The translations under genes and the position numbers were made by a program. From contig NZ_CP098455.1 of the NCBI RefSeq assembly GCF_023702635.1, positions 1,302,001 to 1,366,000 of the forward strand: a stretch of DNA of 64,000 nt, in the 5' to 3' direction. Shown one piece after another: positions 49,413 through 64,000 of this stretch. The notes beneath the pieces are model-generated. The model saw only the letters and a program-made list of their open reading frames with translations. It was not told the DNA's origin and ran no database searches. This DNA comes from Spongiibacter taiwanensis (GTDB taxonomy: Bacteria > Pseudomonadota > Gammaproteobacteria > Pseudomonadales > Spongiibacteraceae). Within the stretch, counting starts at the first letter, position 1; each line of letters opens with the position of its first letter.

Positions 49413-50794
49413 GCGGAGGCCTCCCAGCGCTGACGCAAGGCTGCGAGCAGGCGCTGGTGCACGCCGTCAAAGCCGCCATTACTCATAATGACCAAGTGAT
49501 CCCCCGCCGCCAATTCATCCACTAACCCGGCAATGGTGGCATTCAGGTCGGTACTCAATTCCGCCGCCACCGGGCTATCAGCAATGACCTGATCCAAGGA
49601 CCAGTCCAGGCCGGGAGGCTGGTACCAGATTGCCTGATCCGCCGCTGCCACCGAAGCTGCCAGGCGATCCTGATAAATACCCATACGCATGGTGTTGGAG
49701 CGCGGTTCAATCAGGGCAATGATTCGCCCCGCCACCCGGCCACGCAGGCCTTCAAGGGTGGTCGCAATCGCCGTGGGGTGATGGGCAAAGTCATCATAAA
49801 CGGCAATACCGGCGACGGTTGCCAACAACTCCATCCGTCGCTTAACACCCTGAAAGGCATTCAGGGCGTCAATGCCCAGGGTGGGCAACACGCCAACATG
49901 ATGGGCCGCCGCCAGGGCGCCCAAAGCGTTGTGCAGATTGTGCTCGCCGCTGTGTTGCCATTTCACCTCGCCCTGCAGTTCCCCCTGGTGGAACACCTGA
50001 AAATGGGAGAAGTCCGCCGTCAATGGCTGCCCCTGCCATTCCGCCGCCTCGTCGCCCTGGGGCGCGGCGGCAATGCGCTGCACGTCACTCCAGCAGCCTT
50101 TGTCCAAGACTTCCTGCAGCGGCGCACAATCCTGGGGAACCAGAATTCGCCCGCCGGAGGGAATGGTTCTGACCAAGTGATGAAATTGACGCTGGATGGC
50201 CGCCAGGTCGTCAAAAATATCGGCGTGATCAAACTCGAGATTATTGAGAATGGCAGTGCGCGGACGGTAGTGGACAAACTTGGAACGCTTGTCAAAAAAA
50301 GCACTGTCGTATTCGTCAGCTTCAATCACGAAAAAGTCCGAGCCGCCCAAGCGCGCAGACTGACCAAAATCAGCAGGCACACCGCCAATCAAAAAGCCGG
50401 GCTCATAGCCGTTGTGCTCAAGAATCCACGCCAGCATGGAGGTGGTGGTGGTCTTACCATGGGTGCCGGCACAGGCCAGCACCCAACGGTCTTGCAGCAC
50501 TTGCTCGCACAGCCACTGAGGGCCAGAGGTGTAGCGCAGCCCCCGGTCAAGCATGTATTCCACACAGGGGTTACCGCGACTCATGGCATTGCCGACTATC
50601 ACCAGGTCCGGTGCGGGGTCGAGATGGGCAGGGTCATAGCCCTCCATCAGACCAATGCCCTGGGCTTCGAGCTGGGTGCTCATCGGCGGGTACACATTGG
50701 CATCGGAGCCGGTCACTTTGTGCCCTAACTCCCGGGCCAAAATGGCGAGACCACCCATAAAGGTGCCGCATATCCCCAAAATATGAAGGTGCAT
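49409..50794 (-). CDS. mpl: UDP-MurNAc:tripeptide ligase Mpl (murein recycling)
   Basis: Mpl joins the recycled tripeptide L-Ala-gamma-D-Glu-meso-DAP to UDP-MurNAc. 461 aa from ATG 50794, the usual [17 protein letters not shown] start. Mur-ligase motifs are the Rossmann start, [19 protein letters not shown] (P-loop), [16 protein letters not shown], and [19 protein letters not shown]. An in-frame GTG at 50809 is inside a terminator stem and is rejected. There is no ribosome binding site in the 14 nt between that terminator and the ATG; see the finding on this junction. Confidence 0.96.
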
Positions 50795-50799
50795 AAATG

Positions 50800-50828
50800 A
50801 AAAAGCCACACAGTTTTAACTGTGTGGC
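50800..50828 (-). terminator. Intrinsic terminator of the porin gene, abutting mpl
   Basis: On the minus strand GCCACACAGTT and AACTGTGTGGC form a perfect 11-bp stem with an AA centre (4-6 nt effective loop) followed by TTTTT. It is 74 nt after the porin stop and ends 6 nt before the mpl ATG, so it must sit in the mpl leader. Confidence 0.85.
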
Positions 50829-50901
50829 ATGTTATCACCGCCGTTGTGCTATCTCTATGGACAAAACCGCGCGATCGTCACAACAGCGTTGGGCGCGGTC
50901 G

Positions 50902-52128
50902 TTAGAAGCTCAGGCCCACCCACAACCACAGTTTGTCGGTGTCAACGGCATATTCATCGGCTGAGTAAGCGGAGTACTTGATACCCGCATTATAGATACC
51001 GAACTTCTTGCTGTAGACCAGATCGATTTCGTCACCATAGGCATCGGGACCAGTGCTGTCATCGTCAGCGCTAAAGTCGTGATAAACCACGGCCCAGCTA
51101 CCGCCAGCGAGACTACCACCAATAGAAAGATAGGTATCGACGAGACCGCCATCTGGGGAGTTTGAAGGCTCTGTCGGAACGATGAACATATCTGCCCAAC
51201 CGTTAAACTTGTGCAACGTGGCCAAGGGCGTGCCGAAACCATACATACCGTCGTCTGAGCCCAACACTTCATACCCCAATTTAACGGTAATACCGGAGAC
51301 CGCCACACCGCCTTCCAACATCATATAGTCAGCATCGTACTCAGTACTGCCCGATTCAAAGGTTTGGGTAGCGAATTCAGCCGCATAGAGAAACTTCACG
51401 TCGCCGCCAGCTGACCCAGTGAAGCTGGCACCGTAAGTATCCAGAGTGGCATCGTTACCGGTGAAGTCATTCTCCAACATGTAGGAATATCCCACCAGGG
51501 TACCTACAGGCGTGGTGTAAGCCACGTTGATAAAATGATCTTTGGAATCCTGATCTGCTGCCTCGGCAAAAATACGATTGCGCTGAGTGATGTAGGCGTA
51601 GTTGATCGCCAGCTCTTTGGTCGGAGTGACCGCCAGAGTCAAACCATCAAAGGTTTGGCGATCCTGGCGCCAGCCCACATGACCAACAAAGCGGTGGCCA
51701 TCATAGGTCAACACCTGACGACCAAATTTAGCCGTTACGATGCCGTTTTTGTACTGAATGAAGCCCTGATCCAGCTCTGTTGTTTCTGGATCGGCGATAA
51801 CGGAGTACTCACCGGTGTTAAAGCCAGTGGGCGGCACCGAGTAGGCGTCGCCACCAGCAACGATGCGGCTGTCTTCTACTTCTATCGTGGCAGAAAAGCC
51901 CTCCACACTGCCCGTGGTGTAGCCAATCATCGTACGCAGCGTCAGCGCTTCGGCCTCATCCACAGCATCGGTATCCTGATCAACCGTTTCGTAACGCAGA
52001 CGAAGATCACCATAGGCCTTGCCACCGGTAATGGCATCGGCAATGGCATCAGCCATCAGGTTGGAGCTGGACATTGCCGCCAGGGCAACGCAGGACGCTG
52101 AAATCAATTTTGTGGGTAACTTACTCAT
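50902..52128 (-). CDS. Outer-membrane porin-like protein
   Basis: A 408-aa beta-barrel protein. Signal peptide MSKLPTKLISASCVALAAMSSSNLMA; mature start near DAIADAITGGKAYGDLRLRYETVDQ. Repeated amphipathic strands (ALTLRTMIGYTTG, AKFGRQVLTYDGHRFVGHVG, LTLAVTPTKELAINYAYI, VKFLYAAEFATQ, YNAGIKYSAYSAD) end with LWLWVGLSF, a BamA-recognised C-terminal Phe. It most resembles the AlgE/alginate-export-like or general diffusion porins of marine gammaproteobacteria; substrate not predictable. A strong terminator follows, and a long AT-rich control region precedes it, so it is probably regulated independently. Confidence 0.82.
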   Translation of the reverse strand: MSKLPTKLISASCVALAAMSSSNLMADAIADAITGGKAYGDLRLRYETVDQDTDAVDEAEALTLRTMIGYTTGSVEGFSATIEVEDSRIVAGGDAYSVPPTGFNTGEYSVIADPETTELDQGFIQYKNGIVTAKFGRQVLTYDGHRFVGHVGWRQDRQTFDGLTLAVTPTKELAINYAYITQRNRIFAEAADQDSKDHFINVAYTTPVGTLVGYSYMLENDFTGNDATLDTYGASFTGSAGGDVKFLYAAEFATQTFESGSTEYDADYMMLEGGVAVSGITVKLGYEVLGSDDGMYGFGTPLATLHKFNGWADMFIVPTEPSNSPDGGLVDTYLSIGGSLAGGSWAVVYHDFSADDDSTGPDAYGDEIDLVYSKKFGIYNAGIKYSAYSADEYAVDTDKLWLWVGLSF

Positions 52129-52524
52129 TGGAAACCTCTCCTAAATACCATCGATCAATAAAAAAATAGGTGTCGTGCTTTCATTTACTTCACGTTCTCG
52201 CGAGCCCTTGCCACCGCTCGACCCAAGTACCGCATAAGGCCCTAACGAACCGCTTCGGCACCGCGGGCTCCCCCAAGAGCGAGCCACTCACTCAAACCAT
52301 GCAGAAATGCAAGCTATTGAATTACTTGTACAAAAAGGCAGAAACACACCCAAAAACATCCGCAGCAGGTAGTCGACCTGCCATCGCTTCTCTCTTTTTG
52401 CCGCCACAACAGCTTGAACGAGGCCGGTCTCCAACGACCCATTCGAGCGGTATTCAGCAAACGCTATGCCAGCGCTGAAACTTGCCTTTAACAATCGCGA
52501 TCACCACCAAACATGCACACAAAA

Positions 52525-52548
52525 TGCATTAATAATTTAATTAATGCA
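52525..52548. promoter_or_regulatory. AT-rich 9-bp palindrome, possible operator
   Basis: TGCATTAAT and ATTAATGCA are perfect inverted 9-mers with a 6-nt AATTTA-like spacer, followed by GAAAATGCAT. The symmetry and half-site length suit a dimeric regulator. It is about 400 nt upstream of the porin start. Confidence 0.4.
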
Positions 52549-52754
52549 CTGAAAATGCATGTATTTAGGCCATGCCGTTTTCGTCACTCAATTGACTCGG
52601 TTTTCGTTACAGGTGGTTTTTCGCACCAGAATGATGCGAACGCGAAATAAGCACTGACAATGAGTGCACCAAAACAGATATATCAGGAGGGAAGACACCA
52701 GTGATCACATCACGCCGTCGGCCGGCGCAATATCATCTTGTCGTCATAAAGAAT

Positions 52755-52807
52755 AAAAAAGCTCGACCCCCGAAGCGATGGGTGAAGGCGAGGATGGGGG
52801 CCGAGCT
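52755..52807 (-). terminator. Terminator of the cupredoxin-containing operon
   Basis: On the minus strand AGCTCGGCCCCC (52807-52796) pairs with GGGGGTCGAGCT (52771-52760; one G-U pair), 24-nt loop, then TTTTTT. It lies 27 nt after the cupredoxin stop and marks the 3' end of the 11-kb envelope-machine operon. Confidence 0.8.
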
Positions 52808-52833
52808 ATCTAACTGACATTGTGGGAAGGGGG

Positions 52834-53199
52834 CTACTGAACAATGACCTTGCCCGACATTTTGTCGCCGTGAATAGCGCACAGGTAGTCGTAGCTGCCG
52901 GGCGTTGTAAATTGCTTGCTGTACTGAGCATCGTGACGAAGGCGCGGGCTGGTGCTATCGGTAAACTGAATCTTGTGATTGGACCCGTCCTGGTTAATCC
53001 AGGTGACGGTTTGCCCCGCCCGAATCGTGATTTCAACCGGCTCAAATCGCATAAAATCGACAATTCGGACAACTTGTTGATCACTGTCCGCTCCGGAATC
53101 CGGCGCGACTGGCGGCTCAGCGGCAGACGACCACAGCGGCACCAGCATGCAGATCAATGGCAGAAGGCGAGGAGGAAGCAAGGTCTTAGCAAGGGTCAT
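52834..53199 (-). CDS. Exported cupredoxin (plastocyanin-like)
   Basis: A 121-aa periplasmic type 1 copper protein. Signal peptide to about residue 27 (LLPLICMLVPLWSSAA); the domain begins near VVRIVDFMRFEPVEITIRAG. Predicted copper ligands are His75 (SNHKI), Cys107, His110 and Met114 in YLCAIHGDKM, the CxxHxxxM spacing of plastocyanin/amicyanin-like proteins. ATG 53199 is selected because CGGAG precedes it; a GTG at 53205 is the alternative. It is the last gene of the operon, 18 nt after the TonB-like gene, and is followed by a strong terminator. It likely carries electrons for the periplasmic flavin/haem proteins encoded upstream, though the partners are inferred. Confidence 0.9.
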   Translation of the reverse strand: MTLAKTLLPPRLLPLICMLVPLWSSAAEPPVAPDSGADSDQQVVRIVDFMRFEPVEITIRAGQTVTWINQDGSNHKIQFTDSTSPRLRHDAQYSKQFTTPGSYDYLCAIHGDKMSGKVIVQ

Positions 53200-53217
53200 A
53201 GGCACTCCGTAGGGTGT

Positions 53218-54255
53218 TTATGAAGGAATAAACGTGATGGGGTAGGCCGAGTAGGTAAACACCGGCACATTCTTACTCTCAAAACGCAGGCCCCGGACTT
53301 GCTCCAATAATTGCGCCAGCACCTGGGGGTCGCGAATACTCGATGACACGATCCGGCAGTCAGTCACCTGCCCCCGGGGGGACACGGTCAGACTAACCAC
53401 CACCGCGCCACCGCCGGGCAACCCACCATCACGGGTTGCCCGGCGAAACAGGGCGAAAAAGGCCAACTTTTGCGCCTCGAAGGCGAGCTGAATTTCTTCC
53501 AGGGTACGCCCGGGCAAGGACGAGGCGGCGCCGCGATCCGCCACATTCACCGCCGCAGACAAACCTTGCCCCGGGACGCGCTCCTCGCGGCGGACCGGTG
53601 ACTCCAGCTGCCCCAGCGCCTTGCCGACCAGCGCGCCCGCCTCTGCAACCACGTCACCACTGCCCCGGTACATAGACGGGGGCGATCCACCGCTGTCTGG
53701 ATCGGTAGCCTTCGCTGGGGCAGCCCCGCTGCTAGCCAACTCACCCACCCGTGGCAAGGCACTGCCGTGCAAGGCCCTGAGCTCAGACTTCAATGCCAGT
53801 AGGCCCGCCGTTCCTGGCGCCGAATCACGGTGTTGGGCAGCCTCCGGCCTGCTTGGTGGAGAGGCCGCTGCGGCATTGCCGGGAGCGATTTGCGAGCCAG
53901 GCTCAGGCCGGGCAGCCGGTGCTGCGGATGCTGCAGGCTTCGGCGGCGCCTTGGGCATCCTGACTTGTGACATCCTGACTTGTGACATCCTGACTTGGGA
54001 CATAGCGGCTTGGGTCATGACGGCTTGGGGCTTCACCTCGGCAGGGGCTGTCACCAAGGACAAGGCAAGGGGCGGAGGAGCTTCCGCTACATTCTGGCGG
54101 GCCACGGGCAGGGGCGGCAGGCGCTGAGCCCAATAAGCCAACCCGGTGGCCAGCAGGACCAGCAGCAAGAGCCAGCTGCGGAAAGCCCGATCCCCCCGGG
54201 CTTGCAAATGCCAGGGGTCACCACCAAATCGCCCCCAATAAACGGCCTCGCTCAT
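53218..54255 (-). CDS. TonB/PglI-like energy transducer
   Basis: A 345-aa protein with one N-terminal membrane segment (WLLLLVLLATGLAYWA, about residues 28-43), a long Pro/Ala-rich periplasmic linker and a C-terminal TonB-like domain of the AgmX/PglI type: GGGAVVVSLTVSPRGQVTDC, then VLAQLLEQVRGLRFESK and TYSAYPITFIPS. The linker carries a pentapeptide repeat (MSQVR). It overlaps the second ExbD by 4 nt, and these two with ExbB would form the inner-membrane motor. It differs from classical TonB by its layout and partners. Predicted to carry force from the motor to outer-membrane or periplasmic TPR proteins. Confidence 0.8.
   Translation of the reverse strand: MSEAVYWGRFGGDPWHLQARGDRAFRSWLLLLVLLATGLAYWAQRLPPLPVARQNVAEAPPPLALSLVTAPAEVKPQAVMTQAAMSQVRMSQVRMSQVRMPKAPPKPAASAAPAARPEPGSQIAPGNAAAASPPSRPEAAQHRDSAPGTAGLLALKSELRALHGSALPRVGELASSGAAPAKATDPDSGGSPPSMYRGSGDVVAEAGALVGKALGQLESPVRREERVPGQGLSAAVNVADRGAASSLPGRTLEEIQLAFEAQKLAFFALFRRATRDGGLPGGGAVVVSLTVSPRGQVTDCRIVSSSIRDPQVLAQLLEQVRGLRFESKNVPVFTYSAYPITFIPS
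53956..54030 (-). repeat. Five tandem 15-bp units in the TonB-like gene
   Basis: Three near-perfect copies of CATCCTGACTTGTGA (plus strand; 53956-54000), followed by two degenerate ones (54001-54030). They encode M-S/T-Q-V/A-R/A pentapeptides in the periplasmic linker. The unit keeps the reading frame. Confidence 0.9.
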
Positions 54256-54743
54256 CCCTGGCTCCCCGGCGACTCCACCGCCAGCAAAACCCCGGCAACC
54301 CCTGCCTCGGCGCAGCTGGCCAAAATTCGCTTCAACAACCCATAGGGGATTTCCCGATCCGCCACAATATTCCAGGTTTGGGCCACCCCCGCGCCTTCTG
54401 CAGAAGCGTCCGTCCCCGACAAGGCCGCAACCAACGCGGGAATGGCGGCGTCACTCCCCGCCTCCTCCCTGTCCAGAGCCTGCCTGGTTATCAGAGGCTG
54501 GTCATCCACCAGAATCCAATCCCGCCCGACGGCCAACACCCGCTTCCGCTCGGGAGGCCTCGAGGCTTCTGCCCTCGGCAAAGTGATATCTTGATACCGG
54601 GGTATCACCTCCACCACCAATGCGTTCACCAACAAATAGAAAACCAGAATGGCGAAGATATCGATCAGCGACACCACATTGATCTCGCCTTGGTCGGGCC
54701 GGTTGCGGGCACGCCGCCCCTTACGTGTTGTCAATGCGGCCAT
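54252..54743 (-). CDS. ExbD/TolR-family protein (second)
   Basis: A 163-aa inner-membrane motor subunit. Short cytosolic N-terminus rich in Arg/Lys, one membrane segment NVVSLIDIFAILVFYLLVNAL with the proton-carrying Asp28, and a periplasmic ExbD fold ending in KRILASCAEAGVAGVLLAV. It overlaps the first ExbD by 1 nt (TAATG) and the TonB-like gene by 4 nt. It differs in sequence from the first ExbD, so the pair is likely to be a heteromeric stator or rotor part, as in AglQ/AglS of Myxococcus. Confidence 0.88.
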   Translation of the reverse strand: MAALTTRKGRRARNRPDQGEINVVSLIDIFAILVFYLLVNALVVEVIPRYQDITLPRAEASRPPERKRVLAVGRDWILVDDQPLITRQALDREEAGSDAAIPALVAALSGTDASAEGAGVAQTWNIVADREIPYGLLKRILASCAEAGVAGVLLAVESPGSQG

Positions 54744-55294
54744 TAATCGCCTCCCCCGCTCGCTTGTGCAGGCAACCCGGCGAGGGCGATCGCCGGAAAC
54801 AGAGCGCCGCCACCCGGCGTTGGAGCGCGCAAGAGCGCCATCAATGCCACAACATCGGCATATTTCACCCGGTCAGCTACCGCCAGCGTGGCTCGATTCA
54901 AATCCGGATGCCGCGCTTTCAACTCCTCCAGCAAAGCGCGTAATTGCGCCTTGAGCAGCGCGTCTTCTCCCAGGTCAACCTCGCTTGGCCGAGAAAGGCG
55001 GTGCGACCCACTGCCGTCGTCTACCACCACTGAGGTCGCGTCCAAGCGCAACTCCAATATCGGCAGCTCGGGCTGTGCTTGCGCCTCATCCCGTTCGCCA
55101 ACCCCGGCAAGTTGCGCTGGTATCGTTTGTACTTTGGCGGCAGTGATCGAGGCGCCAGAGAGCAAAAAGAACACAAGCACCGCAAACACATCTATCAGCG
55201 AAACGATATTGAGGTGGGGTCGCGCCCACGGGGTCGCACCGCGTCCCCGCCGTCGTCCGCTGCCTTTTTCGCCTCCCCGCAGACCAACCACCAC
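54743..55294 (-). CDS. ExbD/TolR-family protein (first)
   Basis: A 183-aa motor subunit. Basic N-terminus, membrane segment HLNIVSLIDVFAVLVFFLLS with the conserved Asp35, and a periplasmic domain with LELRLDATSVVVDDG and LRALLEELKARHPDLNRATL plus RVKYADVVALMALL, the ExbD/TolR fold. The start appears to be GTG 55294 with AGGA about 6 nt upstream; GTG 55291 is equally possible. It is 8 nt after ExbB and overlaps the second ExbD by 1 nt. Confidence 0.88.
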   Translation of the reverse strand: MVVGLRGGEKGSGRRRGRGATPWARPHLNIVSLIDVFAVLVFFLLSGASITAAKVQTIPAQLAGVGERDEAQAQPELPILELRLDATSVVVDDGSGSHRLSRPSEVDLGEDALLKAQLRALLEELKARHPDLNRATLAVADRVKYADVVALMALLRAPTPGGGALFPAIALAGLPAQASGGGD

Positions 55295-55302
55295 TTCAAG
55301 TC

Positions 55303-55950
55303 CTAAGCCGCGACCACTGCGGCCGGGCGCCGCAGCCAGCGAACGAAGCGAGCACTGGCGTTTTCCATGGCATCAATCAGGCTGAGGGTCTGATTTTGCA
55401 GATAGGCATGCAGCAGCAGCGCCGGTATCGCCACCATCAAGCCAAAGGCGGTACAGCTCATTGCCTCAGAGATACCGGCTGACAGCAGATTCGCCTTTTC
55501 CATCGGGTCGGCGTTACCCAGCGCACCGAAGGCACCAATCAGCCCGAACACCGTGCCCAGCAATCCCAGCAGCGTCGCCACATTTGAGAATGTCGCGAGA
55601 TAGGAAGTGCGCCGCTCCACCCCCGGAAGAATTTCAAATAGCTGTTGCTCGGCCACGGTTTCCATATCGCTGAAATGCCCAGAGCTGCGGGACTGCTGCA
55701 GCGTGCCTAACAGCACCACCGCGATGGTGGCCCGGGAGCTTTTCAGCAACTGCTCTGCCTCGCCGAGGTTGGCCCCTTTCAGCAAAGGCTCCAGCTTTTT
55801 CCAGAGGCAGCGATTGCGATGAAGAGACACCGTCAGAAATACAAAGCGCTCCAGCGCAATTGCCAAGGTCAGTATCAACACCGCCGCAATGGGGTACATA
55901 AACAGCCCACCCTCATTAAAAAAAGTTGCCGCTCGCACTGTGAGCTCCAT
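55303..55950 (-). CDS. ExbB/TolQ/MotA-family proton channel
   Basis: A 215-aa inner-membrane protein with three hydrophobic segments: GLFMYPIAAVLILTLAIALERFVFL (about 15-40), NVATLLGLLGTVFGLIGAFGAL (about 128-150) and ISEAMSCTAFGLMVAIPALLLHAYL (about 167-190). The family block YLATFSNVATLLGLLGTVFGLIGAF and SEAM-TAFGLMVAIPA are intact, including the polar Thr residues that face the ExbD Asp. ATG 55950 is preferred to the longer frame. It is the only ExbB in the cluster, followed by two ExbDs. Confidence 0.93.
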   Translation of the reverse strand: MELTVRAATFFNEGGLFMYPIAAVLILTLAIALERFVFLTVSLHRNRCLWKKLEPLLKGANLGEAEQLLKSSRATIAVVLLGTLQQSRSSGHFSDMETVAEQQLFEILPGVERRTSYLATFSNVATLLGLLGTVFGLIGAFGALGNADPMEKANLLSAGISEAMSCTAFGLMVAIPALLLHAYLQNQTLSLIDAMENASARFVRWLRRPAAVVAA

Positions 55951-55989
55951 TCCCCTACGCCTCCCCTCGATCAATAAACATGGTGCCAA

Positions 55990-56274
55990 CTACCAGTTGT
56001 TCCGCTGCAACCGCCAGCGGCGATAGGCCTGCTGGGCTTCATACCACTCGACGTAGCGCTGAAAACTTTGCGGGTCCAGCACCTCGGGCTTGCCGGCCAA
56101 CAACCGGGGAGGTCGATCAACATCACTGCCCTCTCCGCTCTGCCAAGGCATAAGAAAGAGCCCGGCCGCCGACTCATTGTCGCCATAAATCCGTGTGGCC
56201 AAACTGACCTCCTCCACCGCCGCGCCCGACAGCGGCCACAGCAATAACAGCGCACTCAAATACCGTCGTTTCAT
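55990..56274 (-). CDS. Small exported protein, unknown (GltF-position)
   Basis: A 94-aa protein with signal peptide MKRRYLSALLLLWPLSGAA and a mature part of about 75 residues: EEVSLATRIYGDNESAAGLFLMPWQ, then RPPRLLAGKPEVLDPQSF and YVEWYEAQQAYRRWRLQRNNW. I do not recognise a family. The ATG overlaps the preceding TPR lipoprotein stop (ATGA), so it is clearly part of the operon and co-translated. Its aromatic/Arg-rich C-terminus suggests protein contact. By position it could correspond to a small accessory factor such as GltF of Agl-Glt systems, but the sequence gives no direct support. Confidence 0.65.
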   Translation of the reverse strand: MKRRYLSALLLLWPLSGAAVEEVSLATRIYGDNESAAGLFLMPWQSGEGSDVDRPPRLLAGKPEVLDPQSFQRYVEWYEAQQAYRRWRLQRNNW

Positions 56275-56861
56275 TTGCGTACTACCTTGTAGTGGGTTTT
56301 TGAATCTGCATTTTCCAAGTCGAGAATCCACGCAGCGACCAGCAAGTCCTCGCCGCCGCTGAGTTGCTGGTAGCGGCGATAATGCCGCAACGCCGAAGCC
56401 GGTTGATGAAGGGCTTTGTCGTAGAGCACTGCCAGATTCAAATGGGCCTCAGCATAGGCCGGGCGCAGCGCCAGAGCCTGTTGGTAGAGGCCCAGCGCCG
56501 CGGTCACCTCCCCCCGTTGATAACGCAGCGTCGCCAAGGCTGCGGTGGCCACCGCATTGCTGGGGTTGGCTTTTAACGCCGCGGCAAGCAGGCCCTCCGC
56601 CAATGAATGATCGCCCCGCCCGGCGGCAAGAATGCCCAGATTGGTCCAGGGGCCTGAATAGTGAGGATAACGCTGGGCGAGAGACCTAAAGGCAGCTTCG
56701 GCGGCGGCGAGCTCTCCCTGATCCATCAAGCCCAGCGCCCGCGCAAAGGCAGCCTTTGGCATCGCCTCGGGCGCCGGACGCCCCCGGTCACCACCGGGGC
56801 CACTGGCGCAACCAACTGCGAGCAACACCAGCAACACGGCCAGAAACCTAGCGCAAATCAT
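56271..56861 (-). CDS. TPR-repeat lipoprotein (small)
   Basis: A 196-aa lipoprotein: signal peptide MICARFLAVLLVLLAVGC with lipobox AVGC, then about four tetratricopeptide repeats (AAFARALGLMDQGELAAAEAAF, YSGPWTNLGILAAGRGDHSLAE, AVATAALATLRYQRGEVTAALG, AEAHLNLAVLYDKALHQPASA). The TPR superhelix probably scaffolds periplasmic contacts. ATG 56861 has GGGAG 6 nt upstream and overlaps the stop of the large TPR gene by 14 nt. It resembles the AglT/GltE class of small TPR lipoproteins in gliding-motor gene sets. Confidence 0.85.
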   Translation of the reverse strand: MICARFLAVLLVLLAVGCASGPGGDRGRPAPEAMPKAAFARALGLMDQGELAAAEAAFRSLAQRYPHYSGPWTNLGILAAGRGDHSLAEGLLAAALKANPSNAVATAALATLRYQRGEVTAALGLYQQALALRPAYAEAHLNLAVLYDKALHQPASALRHYRRYQQLSGGEDLLVAAWILDLENADSKTHYKVVRK

Positions 56862-59712
56862 CGTAGCTCCCCGCCAGGCGCACCTGCTTGGCATAGCGGC
56901 CGGGCAACATCACCTCGAGCGCGGCAAGACTTTGTTGCAGCGCGTCATTCCACAACCCCTGACGGACATGCCCCAAGTTGTGTTCAAAGGCAGAAATTGC
57001 CCTCTCTTCAAAGGGGGAGGCCTCTTGCTCAAGCAATTGCAGATATTCCCCCAACACCTCCCCCGTCAGATCGGAGGGACGCTGGGACGCGAGAATGGCA
57101 TGGGCGAAATCCCGATACAGCAAGCCGAGCTCATTCAGGGCAATACTGGATACGTCCGCATAACCATACTCCGCCGCGCGATGAAAACCCTGGGCAGCCT
57201 GCTCCAGCAGCCGTCCCTTGGTTGCCAGCGACGTGGCCAGGGGCGCTACCAGAGCAATCTGGCGACCCCGGCTGGCGACCTCCTGGGCCAGCTGCAAATG
57301 GGCCTGGGCGGCAATCAGTCGACTGGTGTCCGGCGACCCGGTCCCGATCTCATCCGCCGCAACAATCTCTTTGAGATACCGCTGTCGCTCAGAACTATGT
57401 GGGGGTAACAGCCCGACAACATGCCAACGAACGCGTTGAGCCGCCTCTGCGTCGGGGCGGCCGGTCTCCAAATATCGGCGGTAATCAACAAGGGCCTGAC
57501 CGGGCTGACCGGCCCGCTGGAACCATTGGGCCGCTTGCAAGCGCGCACTCTCCCGATCAACCAGTTGCTGGCTCGTGTTGGCAGCCAGGCGGCGATATGC
57601 CTGCGCTGCCGCACCGGGCTTGCCCATCTTGCTATAGCCCCGTGCTAGCATCACATCTACCTCGGCTAGCTTTCTCTCTTCCGGAAACTGCTCGACCAAC
57701 ACTTCAAGCCAGTGGAGACTCGCCGGCCATTGCCCCAATTGATCGCGTAACACCGCAGCGTCGAACAAGGCCCGCTGCTTTACGCTAGCTGAGAGGGGTA
57801 GTGCCAGCATCGACTCCAGCGCCGTCGCTGCCGGTTCAAGTTGGCCTGCGTCACGCAAGGTATCTACCCGTTGATAAACGATGATCGCCAACCGGGAGAC
57901 CACGCCGGAGCGATCCTTACCAGCCAGCTCCGAGCCCGCCAGCAAGTTCCGAAACAGGGGCTCGGCTTCACGGTAACGACCCAGTTGAAACAACGCGTCA
58001 GCCTTCAATAGTTGGCCTTGATAATGCTGTCGCGGACTCAGGGGGACAGCGCCCTGTTCAACTTCGCTCACCAGGGCAAGCACCCCGGGGAAATCTCCAG
58101 ATTCAAACAGCAAGCCCGCCGCCTGCAGCAGCGCAATACCGCCCTCCTCTCGCCGGGGATAGGCGGCAACAAAGCGCTGACTCAGAGCTGCCAACCGCTG
58201 GACCGCCACTCGCCGCACCGGGGCCGGGCTCGCTACCAGCGCATCAAGCGCCTGCAATTGGGACTGGATCGCCGCTAGACCGGCATCACCCTTGTTGGCA
58301 TAGGGCGTATCACTATAAGCAAGCAACTCGTATTCGACAGCGGCAAGTTTAAAGCGGCCGCCATCATAGTAGGTCTCGGCGAGGGCCCGGCGAACATCGC
58401 CCCTGGCCTCACTGCCAGGAAAGCGGGCCAGCCAGCGCTGATACATCGCGGTAGCAACGTCAAGGGTCCCGGTCCGCCCCTGACGGAATTGCTGGTGATG
58501 ATAGCCAGCAACATCGAGCATATAGGCCATTAAAACCGACACCTCCACACCCGGCGCCAATACCACCGGTTGCGCCGGCGCAGCAGCAGGAAGCAGGGGA
58601 TTGCCGGGATCATAGCGTTGAATAAAGACCGCTTTCTGGGCGGTCGCCTGGGCCATCAAACCTCCATTCAGGTAGGCGCCAATGGCCTGGCGGTGAAAGG
58701 CAGGCGCGGCAGGCGAATCAGGTCGCGATGCCGCATAGTGCAGCGCCACGAGAGCGGCATCGGTTATCCGCTGGGTTTCCAGCAAGCGCTCGACCAGGCG
58801 CTGGTAGATTGTCAGCGCAATCGCCTGATCGCCCTCAGGGGGTAGGAAAATATCCAGTTGTGCCCTGTCGCTGGCTGCCAGGCACAGCACCGCCAAACGC
58901 GTGGCATCCTCAACAGTTCCCTGACGGTTGTCCGTCGCCAGGTAGGGGGGCAGACCGGGAGAAGGGTCGCTGATGACCGGCTGCGACAACAGAACCGCAT
59001 TAAGGTCTACCAAGGCCTGTGAAAACTGATCCAACTGATAGCGAGCCCAAGCGCGTTTGTAGTGCCCGTAAATGCGGTAATCCTGACCCGCCGAGGGCAG
59101 GGCAAGAAGTGCACTGTAAGCGCGCTCTGCAGCCGCGAAATTCTTCAATCTCAACCACATTTCTGCTGCCCGAAACTGGGCTTTCACGGCGAGCGGGCTA
59201 TCGGGATAATCGGCGGCAAGTTGCTCCAGGCTGGCAATCGCCGCGCTGTCATCACCCTGCATCGCCTCCGCCCGGGCCCGCTGATAAAGCACTTGAGTGC
59301 GGCTGGGGTAGTGAGGGAAAGCCGCCAGTAAACGCTGGTAATTGGCCAGGGCCGGCTGCAACTGATCCGGCCCAAGTAAACCCGAGGCCACCGCGTCTAC
59401 CCGCAGGTCTGCGGCCCGCCGCAGGGCTTCTGCTTGCACTTCACTCCTGGCGGCCATCCCCGCAATCTGGTCATAGTGCTCAAGGGCGCTGCGCAAGGCC
59501 GCGGCATCGTCGCCCTCCTCGGCAAGGGAGCTTGGAGCGAGAGAGATTCCCAGGCGCTCCGGACGCTGGCCGTTTCCGCCAATTAACTCCCCAACCGTTT
59601 GTAATTGCGGCGACGTGCCTGCGCTCTGACAAGCCACCAACGCCGTAACGAGAGGCAGCGCCAACAGCATCGGCGCCACACTGCCCTGGCCCGCTGCGGC
59701 GGGGCTTCTCAC
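56848..59712 (-). CDS. Large TPR-repeat outer-membrane lipoprotein
   Basis: A 954-aa lipoprotein. Signal peptide MLLALPLVTALVAC with lipobox LVAC (about residues 15-28), followed by many TPR/Sel1-like helical repeats throughout (for example QALVDLNAVLL, AAERAYSALLALP, GRYREAEPLFRNLLAGSEL, GQLEPAATALESMLALP, GKPGAAAQAYRRLAANTSQ, ALNELGLLYRDFAHAILAS). No enzymatic motif. The GTG start at 59712 overlaps the upstream stop (GTGA). Size and repeat style are like GltD/AgnB-type scaffolds. It probably sits under the outer membrane and contacts the TonB-like rod. Confidence 0.82.
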   Translation of the reverse strand: MRSPAAAGQGSVAPMLLALPLVTALVACQSAGTSPQLQTVGELIGGNGQRPERLGISLAPSSLAEEGDDAAALRSALEHYDQIAGMAARSEVQAEALRRAADLRVDAVASGLLGPDQLQPALANYQRLLAAFPHYPSRTQVLYQRARAEAMQGDDSAAIASLEQLAADYPDSPLAVKAQFRAAEMWLRLKNFAAAERAYSALLALPSAGQDYRIYGHYKRAWARYQLDQFSQALVDLNAVLLSQPVISDPSPGLPPYLATDNRQGTVEDATRLAVLCLAASDRAQLDIFLPPEGDQAIALTIYQRLVERLLETQRITDAALVALHYAASRPDSPAAPAFHRQAIGAYLNGGLMAQATAQKAVFIQRYDPGNPLLPAAAPAQPVVLAPGVEVSVLMAYMLDVAGYHHQQFRQGRTGTLDVATAMYQRWLARFPGSEARGDVRRALAETYYDGGRFKLAAVEYELLAYSDTPYANKGDAGLAAIQSQLQALDALVASPAPVRRVAVQRLAALSQRFVAAYPRREEGGIALLQAAGLLFESGDFPGVLALVSEVEQGAVPLSPRQHYQGQLLKADALFQLGRYREAEPLFRNLLAGSELAGKDRSGVVSRLAIIVYQRVDTLRDAGQLEPAATALESMLALPLSASVKQRALFDAAVLRDQLGQWPASLHWLEVLVEQFPEERKLAEVDVMLARGYSKMGKPGAAAQAYRRLAANTSQQLVDRESARLQAAQWFQRAGQPGQALVDYRRYLETGRPDAEAAQRVRWHVVGLLPPHSSERQRYLKEIVAADEIGTGSPDTSRLIAAQAHLQLAQEVASRGRQIALVAPLATSLATKGRLLEQAAQGFHRAAEYGYADVSSIALNELGLLYRDFAHAILASQRPSDLTGEVLGEYLQLLEQEASPFEERAISAFEHNLGHVRQGLWNDALQQSLAALEVMLPGRYAKQVRLAGSYDDLR

Positions 59713-61508
59713 AGCACCACCTCGCTGAAATTCCCGAAGCGCTTTTCAGCCAGCCGGGCTAGGGCAAAATGGGCCTCCGCCAGATAGGCCTCGGTACGCG
59801 CCAACTCCCTTTGCAAATACCCTAGCGCCGCATTCTCTGCCAGGCCGGCTTGCGCTTCAAAACGGCCATCCAACTCCACCAGCAGCCGGTCAATCTCGCC
59901 GACCAGCGGATCGGAAACATCAGCAGTCAATGCCAGCCGGGCCTGGCTGCGACGCAGCATCAGCACCTTTTTGGTATCAATCAGATTGCGCAGTTTATCT
60001 GCCGCAACCAAAAAATCCGGCGCCTCCAGCATTCGCACGATATAGGCCTCTGGCGCCGCCTCATCAACACCGCACAACCACTGCCCCCAGCCGCTGTCGC
60101 TGCGCACTAACAACGCGTGGAGCTCTTCCGTCATTTTGCCCTGCTCCACGCGCTCAATTGACTGGCGCAGTGCCAATACGGTTTCACGCAATTGCCTTCC
60201 CGCCTGGTGATAGCGCTTCAACGCCTGCTCGGCAGCGCCCAAGTGCAGCAGGGTATAGGGCACGATCAACATCGCTTCCTGAACAGCTGGGTCGTAGGGA
60301 TCACCGGCCACCAGCTCCATCCAGGGGGCCATAGCCTCAATAACTTCACCCCGCTTGCGGGCGGGCACCACCGCCCAGGCATTTCGAAAGGGAGATTGGC
60401 GCCGAGCCCAGGCGATAAAATCTTCGGAATCAGACCACATAAAGCCCGCTTGGGGACTGCCGTTGTAGGGATTTTCGGTCAGCCCGGCACCGGCATCATC
60501 AACCGGGTTCAACATTGCCCAGCCCAACCCGATCAACGCCTGACTGGCATAGGGGCCATGTCGCCGCACTTCACTGTAATAGTCTGCGGCTTTGCGGTGA
60601 TCACCCCGGTCAAGAAAGTACGACCCGAGCAGCAAGTGCCCTTGATCACGCAGAATGCGCTGCCCCTCGTCAGCTACCTCTGCACGCAAGAGTTGCTCGA
60701 GCGGCTCAGACCGCCCCTGGGAGAGGGACGCCAACGCGCCGTTGAATTGGTCAAACCATGCTTCATCAGCGGGGACCTGGGGCGCGATCCCAGTGTCGCG
60801 CTCAAGCCCGACATACGCCGCATCGGACAGATAGGCAAAGCGCCGGCCGGAGGCCTGCCAAAAATGGGCGGAATCAGCCCAGTGGGCATTGCCCGTGACG
60901 CTGACCACCTTGACCTCGGTCTTGTAGAACAAGCCAAATTGGCTGTCATCTTCCAAGACCACTGCGACGTCCTGCTGCCCCTCGAGAACATCCACATAGG
61001 CGTCCACTCGAACGGGAATCCGCTCCTGACCGCCTCGCCCTGCCACCCCGACCAGCGTTGCACGAATACGATGACGACCCGGCGACAGCGACAATACCGC
61101 AATATGATGGCGTGCTGATTGGTTAAGGGCATCGGTTTCGAACAGACTGTAGTTGTATGACAGAGGCGACGAGGATTCATCTACCAGAATGGACACAGAC
61201 TGCAGATCCAGCTTTGCAGCCCGGTCGGCCACCAGTAAATTAACCAGGCCCAGATCGCGAATTTCCGTTTCCAGCGCTTGCCGCACCGCCTTGTCCACCT
61301 GCAGCGCCCGAGCTTCCAGGTCACCGTCACCCACAGCGCCGCGTTCATCCACAGGATCACTCAACGCCACACTCACACTCAGCCATGCCAGCAGCAACAT
61401 CGCAGCAAAAGGCAGCACTCGCTCCATCAGCACGATTCCGAGCAGGCCGCTCATGGCAACCGCACTATTCCGCCGGCGGCCAGGCAGTCCTTCATCCTTT
61501 GATTTCAT
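59709..61508 (-). CDS. TPR-like envelope protein (599 aa), unknown family
   Basis: A 599-aa protein with an N-terminal hydrophobic segment (LLGIVLMERVLPFAAMLLLAWLSVSVAL, about residues 21-48), probably a signal anchor or signal peptide, and a periplasmic part. A beta-rich section (about 60-210; SVSILVDESSSPLSYNYSLFE, HRIRATLVGVAGRGG) is followed by helical TPR-like units (GHLLLGSYFLDRGDHRKAADYYSEV, ASQALIGLGWAMLN, LHLGAAEQALKRYHQAGRQL). A C-terminal coiled-coil-like region runs to ALARLAEKRFGNFSEVVL. ATG 61508 has GAGGAGG 6 nt upstream, a strong site, suggesting this gene begins its own ribosome-loading point within the operon. It opens the motor part of the cluster, 81 nt after the PepSY gene. 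Confidence 0.75.
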   Translation of the reverse strand: MKSKDEGLPGRRRNSAVAMSGLLGIVLMERVLPFAAMLLLAWLSVSVALSDPVDERGAVGDGDLEARALQVDKAVRQALETEIRDLGLVNLLVADRAAKLDLQSVSILVDESSSPLSYNYSLFETDALNQSARHHIAVLSLSPGRHRIRATLVGVAGRGGQERIPVRVDAYVDVLEGQQDVAVVLEDDSQFGLFYKTEVKVVSVTGNAHWADSAHFWQASGRRFAYLSDAAYVGLERDTGIAPQVPADEAWFDQFNGALASLSQGRSEPLEQLLRAEVADEGQRILRDQGHLLLGSYFLDRGDHRKAADYYSEVRRHGPYASQALIGLGWAMLNPVDDAGAGLTENPYNGSPQAGFMWSDSEDFIAWARRQSPFRNAWAVVPARKRGEVIEAMAPWMELVAGDPYDPAVQEAMLIVPYTLLHLGAAEQALKRYHQAGRQLRETVLALRQSIERVEQGKMTEELHALLVRSDSGWGQWLCGVDEAAPEAYIVRMLEAPDFLVAADKLRNLIDTKKVLMLRRSQARLALTADVSDPLVGEIDRLLVELDGRFEAQAGLAENAALGYLQRELARTEAYLAEAHFALARLAEKRFGNFSEVVL

Positions 61509-61589
61509 TGGCAACCTCCTCAAGTCGTGACAGAGCGATCCAACCGCGCCGCTTAGGATTAAACAAACGCGCTGCCTCAGCCGCATATT

Positions 61590-62486
61590 TCATTTCCGGC
61601 GGCGCCGATTACTGCGCCACATCATCCAAATGCCGCTGATTGACAGCCATACACACAGAATGCCAACGGTGTTAATCACCCATGGCCCAAATCGGCCAAA
61701 AAAGCGGCCACTGTGCATATCAATCAGCAGCTGTTCCAATGCCACCGTTGGCCGCGCAAAGGGCAAAACCTTGGCTTTGATCTCCTCACTCAAATCGGTC
61801 AACACAGACCATTGCACATCGACATCCGAGTCAAGGGCCTCCCAAACCATGCCGTCGCCGGTGGCATAACTGCTTTCGCCCTTTACCACAACACGTTGAC
61901 CGCTTGCGCTCGTGGCGGGCAACACGCCAATCTGGTTGATTGCAGCCACCGGCAACATATAGTCGCTGATCTCATCAATCACACTTCCCTTCGCATCCAC
62001 CAGCGTGAGCTTGTCTTTGGTCGCAACAAAAATCTGCGCCGACGCATCTTCGCCCAGGGCAGAAAAGCCAACTGGCGAGGGAATGTGTCGATCCAGCAAA
62101 TGCCCATCCACCACCGTATTCTCAGTGGTATTGACCAACCAGTGGCTGGCATTCACATACCCCGTCTCTGGCGCCCGGGGATACAGCCCGTACATTGACA
62201 TAACGGCGGCCGACTTGACCCGCAGCGCGTCCAGGCCCCAGGACGCACTTTGGTTCAGCAGCACACCACTAATTCCGAGCCAGGCCATGAACAGAAAGGC
62301 GAACAAGCCGGCCCGCTGGTGCCACTGTCGAAGCACCATCGTCAGGTTTTTCTTTGCGCCGCCGGGCTTCGACGACGACCCTACCGCCCGCAGCTTAGGC
62401 ACCTTTTTCAATAAGGCTTTGCGCATGACCGTTTGCCCGAGTACAACTTTGTCTTTGCCAGCGTCTGCAATGTCTATATCAGCCAT
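61590..62486 (-). CDS. PepSY-associated membrane protein (second)
   Basis: A 298-aa inner-membrane protein with two main membrane segments: AGLFAFLFMAWLGISGVLLN (about 59-78) and PWVINTVGILCVWLSISGIWMMW near the C-terminus. The conserved His of QWHQRAGLFAF and the IDMHSGRFFGRFGPW box match PepSY_TM proteins; the periplasmic loop between is about 180 aa. Family members often transfer electrons between membrane and periplasmic flavoproteins. It stands directly after the FMN-binding gene (29 nt) and shares its direction, so a role as the membrane redox partner is likely. GAGG 7 nt upstream supports ATG 62486. Confidence 0.88.
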   Translation of the reverse strand: MADIDIADAGKDKVVLGQTVMRKALLKKVPKLRAVGSSSKPGGAKKNLTMVLRQWHQRAGLFAFLFMAWLGISGVLLNQSASWGLDALRVKSAAVMSMYGLYPRAPETGYVNASHWLVNTTENTVVDGHLLDRHIPSPVGFSALGEDASAQIFVATKDKLTLVDAKGSVIDEISDYMLPVAAINQIGVLPATSASGQRVVVKGESSYATGDGMVWEALDSDVDVQWSVLTDLSEEIKAKVLPFARPTVALEQLLIDMHSGRFFGRFGPWVINTVGILCVWLSISGIWMMWRSNRRRRK

Positions 62487-62515
62487 AAAAGAACCTCACT
62501 CTCATCGTTATTTTT

Positions 62516-63055
62516 TCACTGAATCAGACTGTCAAACACGATAGCCGTCCACGCCATTCGCTCCATCATCTGAACCGAAAGGGTTGCACCGGTGATATTG
62601 TCCACCTCGACATCAAGTCCTGATGGCGTCGCCTTGGCACCGTACAATTGCTGGAGAAACGACGGTTCAGCCACCTGCTCACCACGAGACTCTCTGTAGA
62701 TAAGCACCTTTGCCACTTCCACACTCTGATTACTGATCACAAATCCGCAGGTTGTTGGCACGTAGCCCTCCTTGCCAATATCGTCGAAGATCCACACACT
62801 TCTGTCGCCGTCCTGCCAGTAACGGAGCCGTTGCTGGGGAAAATTTCGCTTGAATGCCTGGGCTACTTTCCCCTGGTCGCTCGCAGATAACTCCAACACC
62901 TTTGGTGCCGGCACCTGGCCATTGAAGACCTCTTTTAGAAACACCTCCGGGGTTTGAAAGGTTTTGTAAAGTTCAAAGGCTTGAGCAGCGCCGCTAGACC
63001 ACATCAACATCGCTGCCAGTACCGCAAATAATCCTCGCGTAATATCGCCACACAT
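62516..63055 (-). CDS. Exported FMN-binding protein with covalent flavinylation motif
   Basis: A 179-aa protein with signal peptide (GLFAVLAAMLMWSSGAAQA, to about residue 26) and an FMN-binding domain. The flavinylation motif DxxTGAT occurs as DNITGAT at residues 152-158, with Thr158 the predicted covalent FMN site, followed by SVQMMERM. An ApbE-type transferase is required and is not in this window. The fold is like NqrC/RnfG and related extracytosolic electron carriers, but there is no membrane anchor beyond the signal peptide. It begins the PepSY-motor block; a 195-nt gap separates it from the haemoglobin gene. Confidence 0.9.
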   Translation of the reverse strand: MCGDITRGLFAVLAAMLMWSSGAAQAFELYKTFQTPEVFLKEVFNGQVPAPKVLELSASDQGKVAQAFKRNFPQQRLRYWQDGDRSVWIFDDIGKEGYVPTTCGFVISNQSVEVAKVLIYRESRGEQVAEPSFLQQLYGAKATPSGLDVEVDNITGATLSVQMMERMAWTAIVFDSLIQ

Positions 63056-63193
63056 TTTCCCCGCCTCGCTATATTTGTCGCTGCTGCTCTTGCGCCAGCC
63101 TGCTACCGCTATATCACTTGACAACATATCAACCACTACCTGTCTAAATCGTTTCTGAAAGGTTCGAGAATCGGCGCCGTGCTGAGATCTTCA

Positions 63194-63246
63194 CTGGCTT
63201 TGCAGTACACGCAGCGCGGGCAAACTGCAGAGCCAGCGAGAACCGC
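63194..63246 (-). promoter_or_regulatory. 12-bp imperfect inverted repeat in leader
   Basis: CTGGCTCTGCAG and CTGCAAAGCCAG (minus strand) form a 12-bp stem with one mismatch and a long loop, in the 195-nt gap between the haemoglobin stop and the FMN-binding start. It has no T-run, so it could be an attenuator, an RNA-processing site or an operator. It is the only sizeable gap within the operon. Confidence 0.4.
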
Positions 63247-63250
63247 CCTA

Positions 63251-63712
63251 CTAGCGCGTCACAATCACCCGCTCGTATGGTGCCAGCGCGGCAATCAGCT
63301 GATTGCAGGCTTCATAAGTAACCTCAACGCGCTCACAAGCCTTATAGGCCGCCTCAACCACGGCGTTAAACTGGGTAACAGTGATACCAAGATCAGCATG
63401 AGCAGCTGCCATACTTGCCCCCTGATATTGCACATCACCACCGAGCACCAGTTGCTCCAGCTGGGTATTGAGAAATATCTGCCGCTCAACGTTGCCAAAC
63501 TCGCGGAAGATATGGTTTATGCGGTTATCCAACATGATGTAGTAGAAAAGACTCTCTACCCAGTTGCGGATACCCTCTTTCCCGCCCCACTGCTCCAGTG
63601 CATCGTCATCCAGCGGCGGCAGGGTTTTTGTTTTCCCGGTCTGTGCCTGCAAGGGCATGGCGCAGGCAAACATCAGGGAAATAAACATTAGATACTTAGC
63701 AAATGTCTTCAT
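63251..63712 (-). CDS. Exported group 1 truncated haemoglobin
   Basis: A 153-aa protein with a clear signal peptide (MKTFAKYLMFISLMFACAMPLQA, cleavage before QTG), which is unusual because truncated haemoglobins are normally cytosolic. Family blocks are LEQWGGKEGIRNWVESLFYY, RINHIFREF (CD1-region Phe), FLNTQLEQLVLGG and AAHADLGIT with the proximal haem ligand His105. The distal B10 position aligns with Leu55/Phe56, not the common Tyr, so ligand stabilisation may differ. Cys126 and Cys136 could form a disulfide in the periplasm. ATG 63712 has GAGGA 7 nt upstream. It lies in the cluster with periplasmic flavin and copper proteins. Confidence 0.9.
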   Translation of the reverse strand: MKTFAKYLMFISLMFACAMPLQAQTGKTKTLPPLDDDALEQWGGKEGIRNWVESLFYYIMLDNRINHIFREFGNVERQIFLNTQLEQLVLGGDVQYQGASMAAAHADLGITVTQFNAVVEAAYKACERVEVTYEACNQLIAALAPYERVIVTR

Positions 63713-63743
63713 TGTGTATTCCTCAAGTCGTCCTGGTTGCCAG

Positions 63744-64000
63744 TTAGTAGCTCGCCTGCAATGACAGATAGAAGCCATGCTGGTCCGGAGTGATGGTGAT
63801 ATCACCGAGCCAGGCGTAGGCGAAGGTCATCGACAGGTTCTTATTGGGGAAGTAAGCAACGAAGGCATCAAACCAGTCACTTTCGTTTTGGGTGAGCGTG
63901 CCCGATAGATTTCCGAGCCCCAAGCCCTCGAGGGTCGGTTGTAGTTCGGTGACGTCAATTCCCCCTAGCTCGACGCTTTCTCCGCTGAGATTATCCCCGT
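63744..64000 (-). CDS. C-terminal part of an outer-membrane barrel protein (window-truncated)
   Basis: The last 85 residues of a protein whose 5' part is beyond the window end. The visible part has NESDWFDAFVAYFPNKNLSM, then TFAYAWLGDITITPDQHGFY and ends LSLQASY, a C-terminal aromatic signature of outer-membrane barrels. A PNKNLS-type start of strands and YLSLQ end recall DUF3034 proteins, but I hold this loosely. It is 31 nt upstream of the haemoglobin gene in the same direction, so it probably belongs to the same operon. Confidence 0.65.
   Translation of the reverse strand, partial: GDNLSGESVELGGIDVTELQPTLEGLGLGNLSGTLTQNESDWFDAFVAYFPNKNLSMTFAYAWLGDITITPDQHGFYLSLQASY

Follow-up and report, generated by a model that had tools for sequence, protein, structure and literature searches.

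Why should a row of genes for haem, flavin and copper proteins enclose the genes of an envelope motor? The question is raised by a locus of Spongiibacter taiwanensis (Pseudomonadales, Spongiibacteraceae) at the end of the stretch analysed here, 64,000 nucleotides of contig NZ_CP098455.1 (positions 1,302,001 to 1,366,000; hereafter the window) from a 3.71-Mb, single-contig genome. There, 13 minus-strand genes run from window position 64000 to 52834, beginning with a predicted outer-membrane protein of the DUF3034 family and ending with a cupredoxin and a strong terminator. They make up two modules. One is a redox unit consisting of DUF3034, an exported group 1 truncated haemoglobin, an exported FMN_bind protein (FMN, flavin mononucleotide), a PepSY membrane protein, and the cupredoxin; the other is a motor set of three TPR proteins, a small protein, ExbB, two ExbD proteins, and a TonB-like protein. 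Because relatives in two orders tend to keep both sets together, we propose that the modules work as one system, in which an Agl/Glt-type trans-envelope machine would act together with an envelope electron-transfer unit; we put the probability of this reading at about 0.6. The observations behind it are gene content, conserved linkage, co-inheritance, ligand conservation and, in a second order, a redox-linked Glt set that stands beside a redox-free second set.

The two modules are inherited together in the family

Among the 21 genomes of the window's family, both modules are present in 12, neither in nine, and one alone in none (FMN_bind versus GltD in a 2 × 2 table, p = 3.4e-6, without correction for descent). 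FMN_bind matches were counted at E < 1e-80; weaker ones were taken as paralogues and excluded. Of the weak matches set aside here and in the second order, L271 and L272 both proved to lie in a general porin cassette that is described below. On a tree of the neighbouring MMPL protein, which holds 20 of the 21 genomes (G245 is missing), the joint state changes four times by parsimony and at least three times by well-supported branches. The modules are neighbours in eight of the 12 genomes. In two of these (the window genome and G192) they are nested, with the motor genes inside the redox unit between PepSY and the cupredoxin, and in six they lie in tandem. In the other four (G023, G246, G248, and G254) each module has a locus of its own, and a single deletion or insertion event therefore fails to account for the presence of both.

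A first, sequence-only reading of this DNA had joined the two sets in one operon and had offered absence of conserved linkage in other genomes as grounds for abandoning the idea. Linkage is conserved, both in the family and in the second order treated next, and the spacing of the genes in the window is operon-like, but the nested order is confined to two genomes and in the second order the modules may share a strand or face opposite ways. The single operon is a local arrangement that has not been conserved; the partnership has. In five module-free genomes (L205, L207–L210), genes for NarK, a PP2C-kinase, an AlgE-like protein, Mpl, UbiX, and MMPL form one row with neither module between them.

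Linkage recurs in a second order

The second order, that of a Salinisphaerales metagenome-assembled genome (MAG) and an Oceanococcus MAG, is represented by 85 genomes. A redox FMN_bind gene (counted at about E = 1e-49 or better, weaker matches being treated as paralogues) is found in 41 of them, and all 41 also yield a GltD match, in G277 as a fragment only; GltD matches were kept up to an E-value of 1e-14. The two genes lie no more than 15 kb apart in 30 of the 41 genomes, and GltD matches average 1.98 per redox genome versus 1.16 in the 25 others that have GltD. In the 25 linked loci that we fetched from these 30, all four Glt-type genes were recovered every time and all five redox genes in 24; the remaining locus, L196, begins at FMN_bind, at a contig end. 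Redox and Glt genes share a strand in 13 loci and lie on opposite strands in 12, and with both orientations represented the linkage is therefore not one frozen operon. L188 repeats the window's order from DUF3034 through haemoglobin, FMN_bind, PepSY, GltC, GltD, and GltE to the small protein, but its cupredoxin lies upstream and ExbB does not come after the small gene. ApbE is a flavin transferase, and a gene for it is present in 15 of the 25 linked loci (Pfam, applied to one of them, confirmed it).

Few of these redox-linked Glt sets bring a motor of their own: ExbB and ExbD occur in just six of the 25 loci, a TonB-like gene alone in one more, and 19 sets are without ExbB/ExbD. Second Glt copies, fetched for 14 of these 19 clusters, invariably carry an ExbB-ExbD-ExbD-TonB set and no redox matches (14/14). 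Excerpts of PMC3858216 describe the Agl-Glt/Nfs machines of Myxococcus xanthus, in which one motor is shared by two paralogous transducers. By analogy with Nfs, which in Myxococcus uses AglRQS, a redox-linked set lacking a motor is probably served by that of the second copy.

The GltD sequences bear on the same association. With translations shorter than 600 amino acids, matches below 100 bits, and loci fetched twice excluded, a tree of 65 rows has one branch (SH-like approximate likelihood-ratio test, SH-aLRT, 99) that divides 36 redox-associated rows from 29 redox-free ones; a larger tree is treated below. We read the joint inheritance, the linkage, the second Glt copies, and the cofactor sites described next as pointing to a redox-dedicated branch of Agl/Glt-type machines.

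Cofactor sites of the redox unit are conserved

All features below lie on the minus strand and are given in window coordinates. The sequence-only reading had the truncated haemoglobin, FMN_bind, PepSY, and cupredoxin genes running in the direction of the motor genes; all are present as described, with family matches, and the haem, FMN, and type 1 copper proteins envisaged there have cofactor sites that are conserved across the rows of our ligand alignments (41–43 rows, with four genomes present twice). Where relatives have the motor at another site or flanking the redox genes, these five genes form a contiguous unit. DUF3034 (63744–64000) is cut by the window end. Its remainder, taken from the genome sequence, runs on to about 64862 (open frame L002:14744-15862); the in-window part matches Pfam PF11231 at E = 2e-15, and the genome match is full-length. 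The description of this protein as truncated was mistaken, the gene being complete in the genome and shortened by the window end alone. Going by its family, the product would sit in the outer membrane.

The truncated haemoglobin (63251–63712; signal peptide by eye) scores just under the cut-off of 21 with Pfam Bac_globin (E = 8.7e-4, 19.9 bits), and a genus-level profile compared with the PDB finds group 1 truncated haemoglobins, 3aq7 best at E = 7.8e-9 and HbN (1idr) at E = 8e-5. A truncated globin sequence together with the proximal His, present in 42/42 rows, assigns it to group 1. Its distal pocket is unlike that of HbN. Tyr B10 and Gln E11 are features of the O2-stabilising HbN type; here, Phe occupies the position aligned with the B10 Tyr of 3aq5 (42/42), and two E-helix positions hold Gln (42/42) and, where the second E-helix Gln would be, Asn (42/42).

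FMN_bind (62516–63055, with alternative starts at 63130 and 63136) matches its family under the cut-off of 22 (E = 0.002, 19.2 bits) and carries the flavinylation motif D-x-x-T-G-A-T. The G-A-T with the presumed flavin-carrying Thr is found in 40/40 rows having letters there, and from this Thr we predict that FMN is bound covalently. The PepSY_TM membrane protein (61590–62486) has two hydrophobic spans and matches PepSY_TM (E = 4e-12) and PepSY_TM_like_2 (E = 4e-6), both above cut-off; His56 and His258 are kept in 41/41 rows, and its C-terminal His/transmembrane stretch aligns to structure 7ABW at E = 0.036. A PF03929/PF16357 protein clustered with FMN_bind or ApbE is the hallmark of PepSY-like flavinylation systems, and this is the arrangement seen here, the adjacent FMN_bind itself scoring under cut-off. 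ApbE is encoded once in the window genome, away from the locus.

The cupredoxin (52834–53199; PF00127, E = 5e-11) retains its type 1 copper ligands, one His in 43/43 rows and the Cys, second His, and Met in 42/42. Because it adjoins PepSY where the modules lie apart, directly following it in G023, G171, G123, and G232, we assign it to the redox unit, and its candidacy as a member of the motor set was rejected on the same ground. The window genome encodes a single-domain version, the relatives examined a two-domain one (L034:17141-17866 and L084:4857-5684). In the second order, seven of eight proteins scanned (L171, L175, L178, L187, L194, L195, and L198) fuse an OmpA-family domain to a C-terminal cupredoxin; four of these also have N-terminal beta-barrel matches below cut-off, and the fusion occurs in L105 and L112 as well.

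The motor set resembles the Agl/Glt core complex

Excerpts of Luciano et al. 2011 (PMC3169522) describe a gammaproteobacterial core complex, its function given as unknown, that consists of gltC, gltD, gltE, gltG, aglR, aglQ, and aglS with one additional gene in non-deltaproteobacteria. In the window and its relatives the same gene types are clustered, likewise with one additional gene; this comparison with the text of PMC3169522, which does not give the size of the additional gene, concerns gene content and leaves gene order aside. The likeness to myxococcal Agl/Glt is one of gene content and profile scores rather than of comparison with myxococcal sequences.

The three TPR proteins measure 625, 954, and 207 amino acids as open frames. 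The GltC-like protein (59709–61508, open frame from 61586) and the 954-amino-acid GltD-like lipoprotein (56848–59712, lipobox by pattern) are named by position and size, and neither matches its own profile (GltC and GltD, respectively). The GltE-like lipoprotein (56271–56861, open frame from 56894; lipoprotein by eye) matches NCBIfam GltE NF033758 at E = 2.6e-9; the score is under the cut-off, and two other TPR models rank ahead of it. The small exported protein that follows (55990–56274) has no family match and keeps its position among relatives; it probably corresponds to the one additional gene that non-deltaproteobacteria have in the core complex. Next come an ExbB/TolQ/AglR-type subunit (55303–55950, open frame from 55989; PF01618 (MotA_ExbB), E = 4e-25) and two ExbD proteins, one AglQ-type (54743–55294; PF02472, E = 7e-13) and one AglS-type (54252–54743; PF02472, E = 3e-13). 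Both ExbD proteins retain, by eye, the transmembrane Asp, from which we predict a proton-driven ExbB-ExbD-ExbD motor. The C-terminus of the GltG-like protein (53218–54255) matches AgmX/PglI NF033768 at E = 3.1e-8 (33.6 bits, cut-off 40) and tonB_Cterm at E = 4e-6 (27.1 bits, exactly at the cut-off of 27.1); its Pfam TonB_C match is weak (E = 0.001) and under cut-off.

The earlier proposal had coupled the redox genes to a TonB-like motor and supposed energised uptake or export across the outer membrane through the protein at 63744. Its coupling stands to the extent that redox and motor genes travel together across genomes; the motor itself has the make-up of Agl/Glt and not that of TonB with a TonB-dependent receptor. 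The transport route through the DUF3034 protein is not directly supported. No TonB-dependent receptor match was found among the scanned operon proteins, where DUF3034 is the sole outer-membrane family, and with the AgmX/PglI-like C-terminus this led us to reject a TonB-dependent receptor system.

Two side observations concern Glt-like genes elsewhere in the window's order. ApbE-like genes lie near redox-free Glt-like clusters in two genomes (L039:17105-18109 and L040:4850-5887). Across 244 genomes, DUF3034 and GltD co-occur above expectation (30 versus 18 expected, p = 1.5e-4, kinship ignored), a count that used 84 of the 87 genomes with GltD, three with E above 1e-5 having been dropped.

Spacing and termination of the gene row

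The gap from FMN_bind to PepSY is 29 nucleotides and that from PepSY to the first TPR gene 81 (using the start with a Shine-Dalgarno sequence); neighbouring motor genes overlap or are separated by less than 40 nucleotides, and 18 separate the TonB-like gene from the cupredoxin. From FMN_bind through the cupredoxin, every junction thus overlaps or has a gap of at most 81 nucleotides. The widest gap, between the haemoglobin and FMN_bind genes, measures 114–195 nucleotides depending on the start chosen. We predict a single transcript for the whole row.

The one terminator proposed to close the set, at 52755–52807, is borne out: it has a 12-bp stem and a T run and folds at -24.5 kcal/mol (z -3.5). 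A pattern scan did not pick it up, probably because the scan permits loops of only 3–8 nucleotides. A hairpin of about 13 paired bases per arm, without a T run, lies between the haemoglobin and FMN_bind genes (63120–63255). An RNA element in this gap was considered and rejected, since the stretch folds no better than its shuffles and no Rfam match was found in 50000–64000. Nitrate assimilation genes for NarK, NirB, and a NirD-like protein adjoin the cluster in the window genome (L002:16233-19452 and L003:4857-7767), and NarK or NirB matches occur in five of the 25 second-order loci (L171–L173, L182, and L183; that in L172 is weak).

Relation to known systems

Both parents of this locus are known. 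On the machine side, it differs from Agl/Glt and Agl-Glt/Nfs in that a dedicated redox unit accompanies the complex and in that the redox-linked copy of the second order is mostly without motor genes. It belongs to the same motor superfamily as ExbB-ExbD-TonB with TonB-dependent receptors, and departs from those systems in its two different ExbD proteins, three TPR proteins, AgmX/PglI-like C-terminus, and lack of a receptor match among the scanned operon proteins.

On the redox side, it resembles the PepSY-like flavinylation systems in the parts of PMC8238504 (eLife 2021) and PMC11334425 (mSystems 2024) consulted, where FMN_bind stands beside a PepSY membrane protein and ApbE is often in the cluster; DUF3034, the truncated haemoglobin, the cupredoxin, and the Glt-like machine are additions here. 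The main texts of these two papers, as distinct from their supplementary gene lists, yielded no word starting with globin, cupredoxin, or ExbB. A passage in PMC8238504 terms PF03544, found in 231 PepSY clusters, a TonB receptor; the Pfam name of this family is TonB C-terminus. Some of these 231 clusters may hold a transducer like the present one.

Two simpler cassettes contain parts of the unit. The first is a porin-FMN_bind-PepSY cassette; of the 369 genomes searched in the class, 73 have its FMN_bind at E ≤ 1e-30, the window genome among them. The cassette has the same FMN_bind-PepSY pair: PepSY lies no more than 1.5 kb away in 28 of the 29 other loci examined (one match is weak and at a contig end). 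Over the same distance, none of the 29 has a truncated haemoglobin or DUF3034. Near it (L261–L272), bacterioferritin- or monothiol glutaredoxin-like genes were seen by eye in three of seven loci, two of them from the window's genus. The second is a DUF3034-truncated haemoglobin pair of the window's order, adjacent as here in all 16 loci examined outside the genus (L088–L103), which, unlike the window, have no FMN_bind, PepSY, cupredoxin, or Glt matches. Just upstream of this pair, eight of ten loci have a gene of 773–817 amino acids; the two scanned (L093:8403-10718 and L096:8650-11001) are dCache-GGDEF-EAL proteins, and the pair with its upstream gene looks like a separate haem-linked cyclic-di-GMP cassette. 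Because FMN_bind-PepSY and DUF3034-haemoglobin each occur as cassettes of their own, the redox unit looks assembled from these two existing pairs plus the cupredoxin. Among the matches listed for open PubMed Central texts (supplements excluded), no paper treats the union of a redox unit with a Glt-like complex.

Discussion

On the reading we favour, the ExbB-ExbD-ExbD motor would be driven by protons, and the GltG-like TonB protein and GltC/D/E-like TPR proteins would reach from it through the peptidoglycan to the outer membrane. ApbE would attach FMN to the FMN_bind protein; PepSY would pass electrons over the inner membrane via b-type haem, and the covalent FMN would accept them. Their next acceptor would be the cupredoxin, the exported truncated haemoglobin, or both, beside the DUF3034 outer-membrane protein. 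The motor may move or position these redox proteins, and the probable purpose would be reductive chemistry at the outer membrane, either metal handling or O2/nitric oxide (NO) chemistry. We infer the contact between the modules, the order of the electron carriers, and any action of the motor on the redox proteins from sequence. As the substrate process, metal handling and NO/O2 chemistry seem about equally likely, and polymer modification less so.

Several points weigh against this proposal. The evidence is comparative throughout and sequence-based. The Glt-family profile scores are below their cut-offs, and tonB_Cterm barely attains its own; such matches alone do not prove membership. The Glt-like complex also exists without redox neighbours: none of 15 loci from other families of the window's order has a recognised redox gene nearby, a statement about neighbourhoods rather than whole genomes, and the Glt-like set is complete in all 15, save that the small gene or one ExbD sometimes went undetected. 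GltD matches occur in 87 of the 244 genomes of this order. They occur anyway in 66 of the 85 second-order genomes, so that co-occurrence says little there and linkage is the evidence; FMN_bind and GltD are nevertheless on different contigs in 11 of the 41 redox genomes, of which eight do not allow linkage to be judged because FMN_bind lies less than 5 kb from the contig start.

The larger GltD tree belongs on the same side of the balance. When ten GltD rows from genomes without a redox FMN_bind are added to the 65, the single split is broken in the resulting 75-row tree. The redox label needs two changes over the first 65 rows and six counting the new ones, compared with a shuffled mean of 25. 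Redox-free second-order copies fall within the redox-linked rows, L193 separates from them, and four of the ten added rows (G274, G285, G293, and G328) group with redox-associated rows. Three of these exceptions (G274, G285, and G293) are on contigs of just 5.7–16 kb, in assemblies that may lack the redox genes; G328, on a 176-kb contig, is a real candidate exception, with a very long branch and a placement flagged as unsure. The deep GltD tree is unstable, and the idea of one clean redox clade, seen with 65 rows and lost with 75, is weakened. We maintain the claim that GltD copies appear to cluster by redox association; a single clade is not proven.

The pairing would carry no functional meaning if two independent systems merely shared a chromosomal hotspot and were carried together by chance or by island transfer. 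Several family copies do occupy a variable site among the genes for NarK, PP2C-kinase, AlgE-like protein, Mpl, UbiX, and MMPL, which lie side by side in the five module-free genomes noted above; the Glt-like complex also occurs away from redox genes, and gene order varies between relatives. We nonetheless judge this explanation improbable, given that four of the 12 family genomes keep both modules at separate loci and that the pairing recurs in a second order, in both orientations and with PP2C-kinase, Mpl, and UbiX matches in none of the 25 fetched loci. The split of GltD copies by redox association in the 65-row tree, weaker in the 75-row tree, also argues against it. An improbable role for the redox unit, in turn, is to modify or cross-link a surface polymer moved by the Glt-like machine, as Agl-Nfs distributes spore coat polymer. 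Known Agl-Glt/Nfs machines carry polysaccharides, according to excerpts of PMC3858216, and the OmpA fusions of the second order would hold the cupredoxin at the peptidoglycan; the clusters showed no recognisable genes for polymer synthesis, though most neighbouring genes stayed unnamed.

Two further explanations keep the modules together and assign them a different division of labour; we regard both as doubtful. The redox unit might reduce ferric or cupric ions in the periplasm for metal uptake, with the motor energising passage of the metal or metallophore, much as in the earlier proposal. PepSY/FMN systems are tied to iron reduction in the consulted part of PMC8238504, the unit includes a cupredoxin, and the related porin cassette has bacterioferritin- or glutaredoxin-like genes near it in some loci. 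This account leaves the truncated haemoglobin unexplained, and neither the absence of a receptor among the scanned operon proteins nor the TonB-like C-terminus, whose E-value is lower with AgmX/PglI than with TonB (neither being decisive), speaks for it. Alternatively, PepSY and FMN might reduce the truncated haemoglobin, so that the unit would amount to a periplasmic flavohaemoglobin in split form, used in NO or O2 chemistry and merely placed by the Glt-like complex. The three proteins do occur together in 24 of the 25 second-order loci (a contig end truncates the other), and nitrate assimilation genes adjoin the unit in the window genome and in a minority of linked loci. Yet the Phe and Asn of the distal pocket are not those of an HbN-type NO dioxygenase, and NarK also lies beside the empty site in module-free genomes.

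Returning to a joint system of motor and redox unit, a more specific version can be put forward tentatively, at somewhat less than even odds. Besides gliding and spore coat assembly, the machines might have a third functional branch, a Glt paralogue serving an envelope electron chain of PepSY haem, covalent FMN, truncated haemoglobin, and peptidoglycan-tethered cupredoxin. In the Zhongshania group it would run on a motor of its own, in the second order on a mostly borrowed one, and movement driven by the proton motive force would deliver or gate redox chemistry at the outer membrane.

For the core complex whose function PMC3169522, in the part consulted, calls unknown, a conserved redox partner offers a handle on the role of one branch. 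It predicts that losing the flavinylated periplasmic protein, the haem globin, or the copper protein should copy the loss of the Glt-like genes. The clusters that have a transducer but no adjacent motor genes would, in addition, provide a natural test of motor sharing outside Myxococcus.

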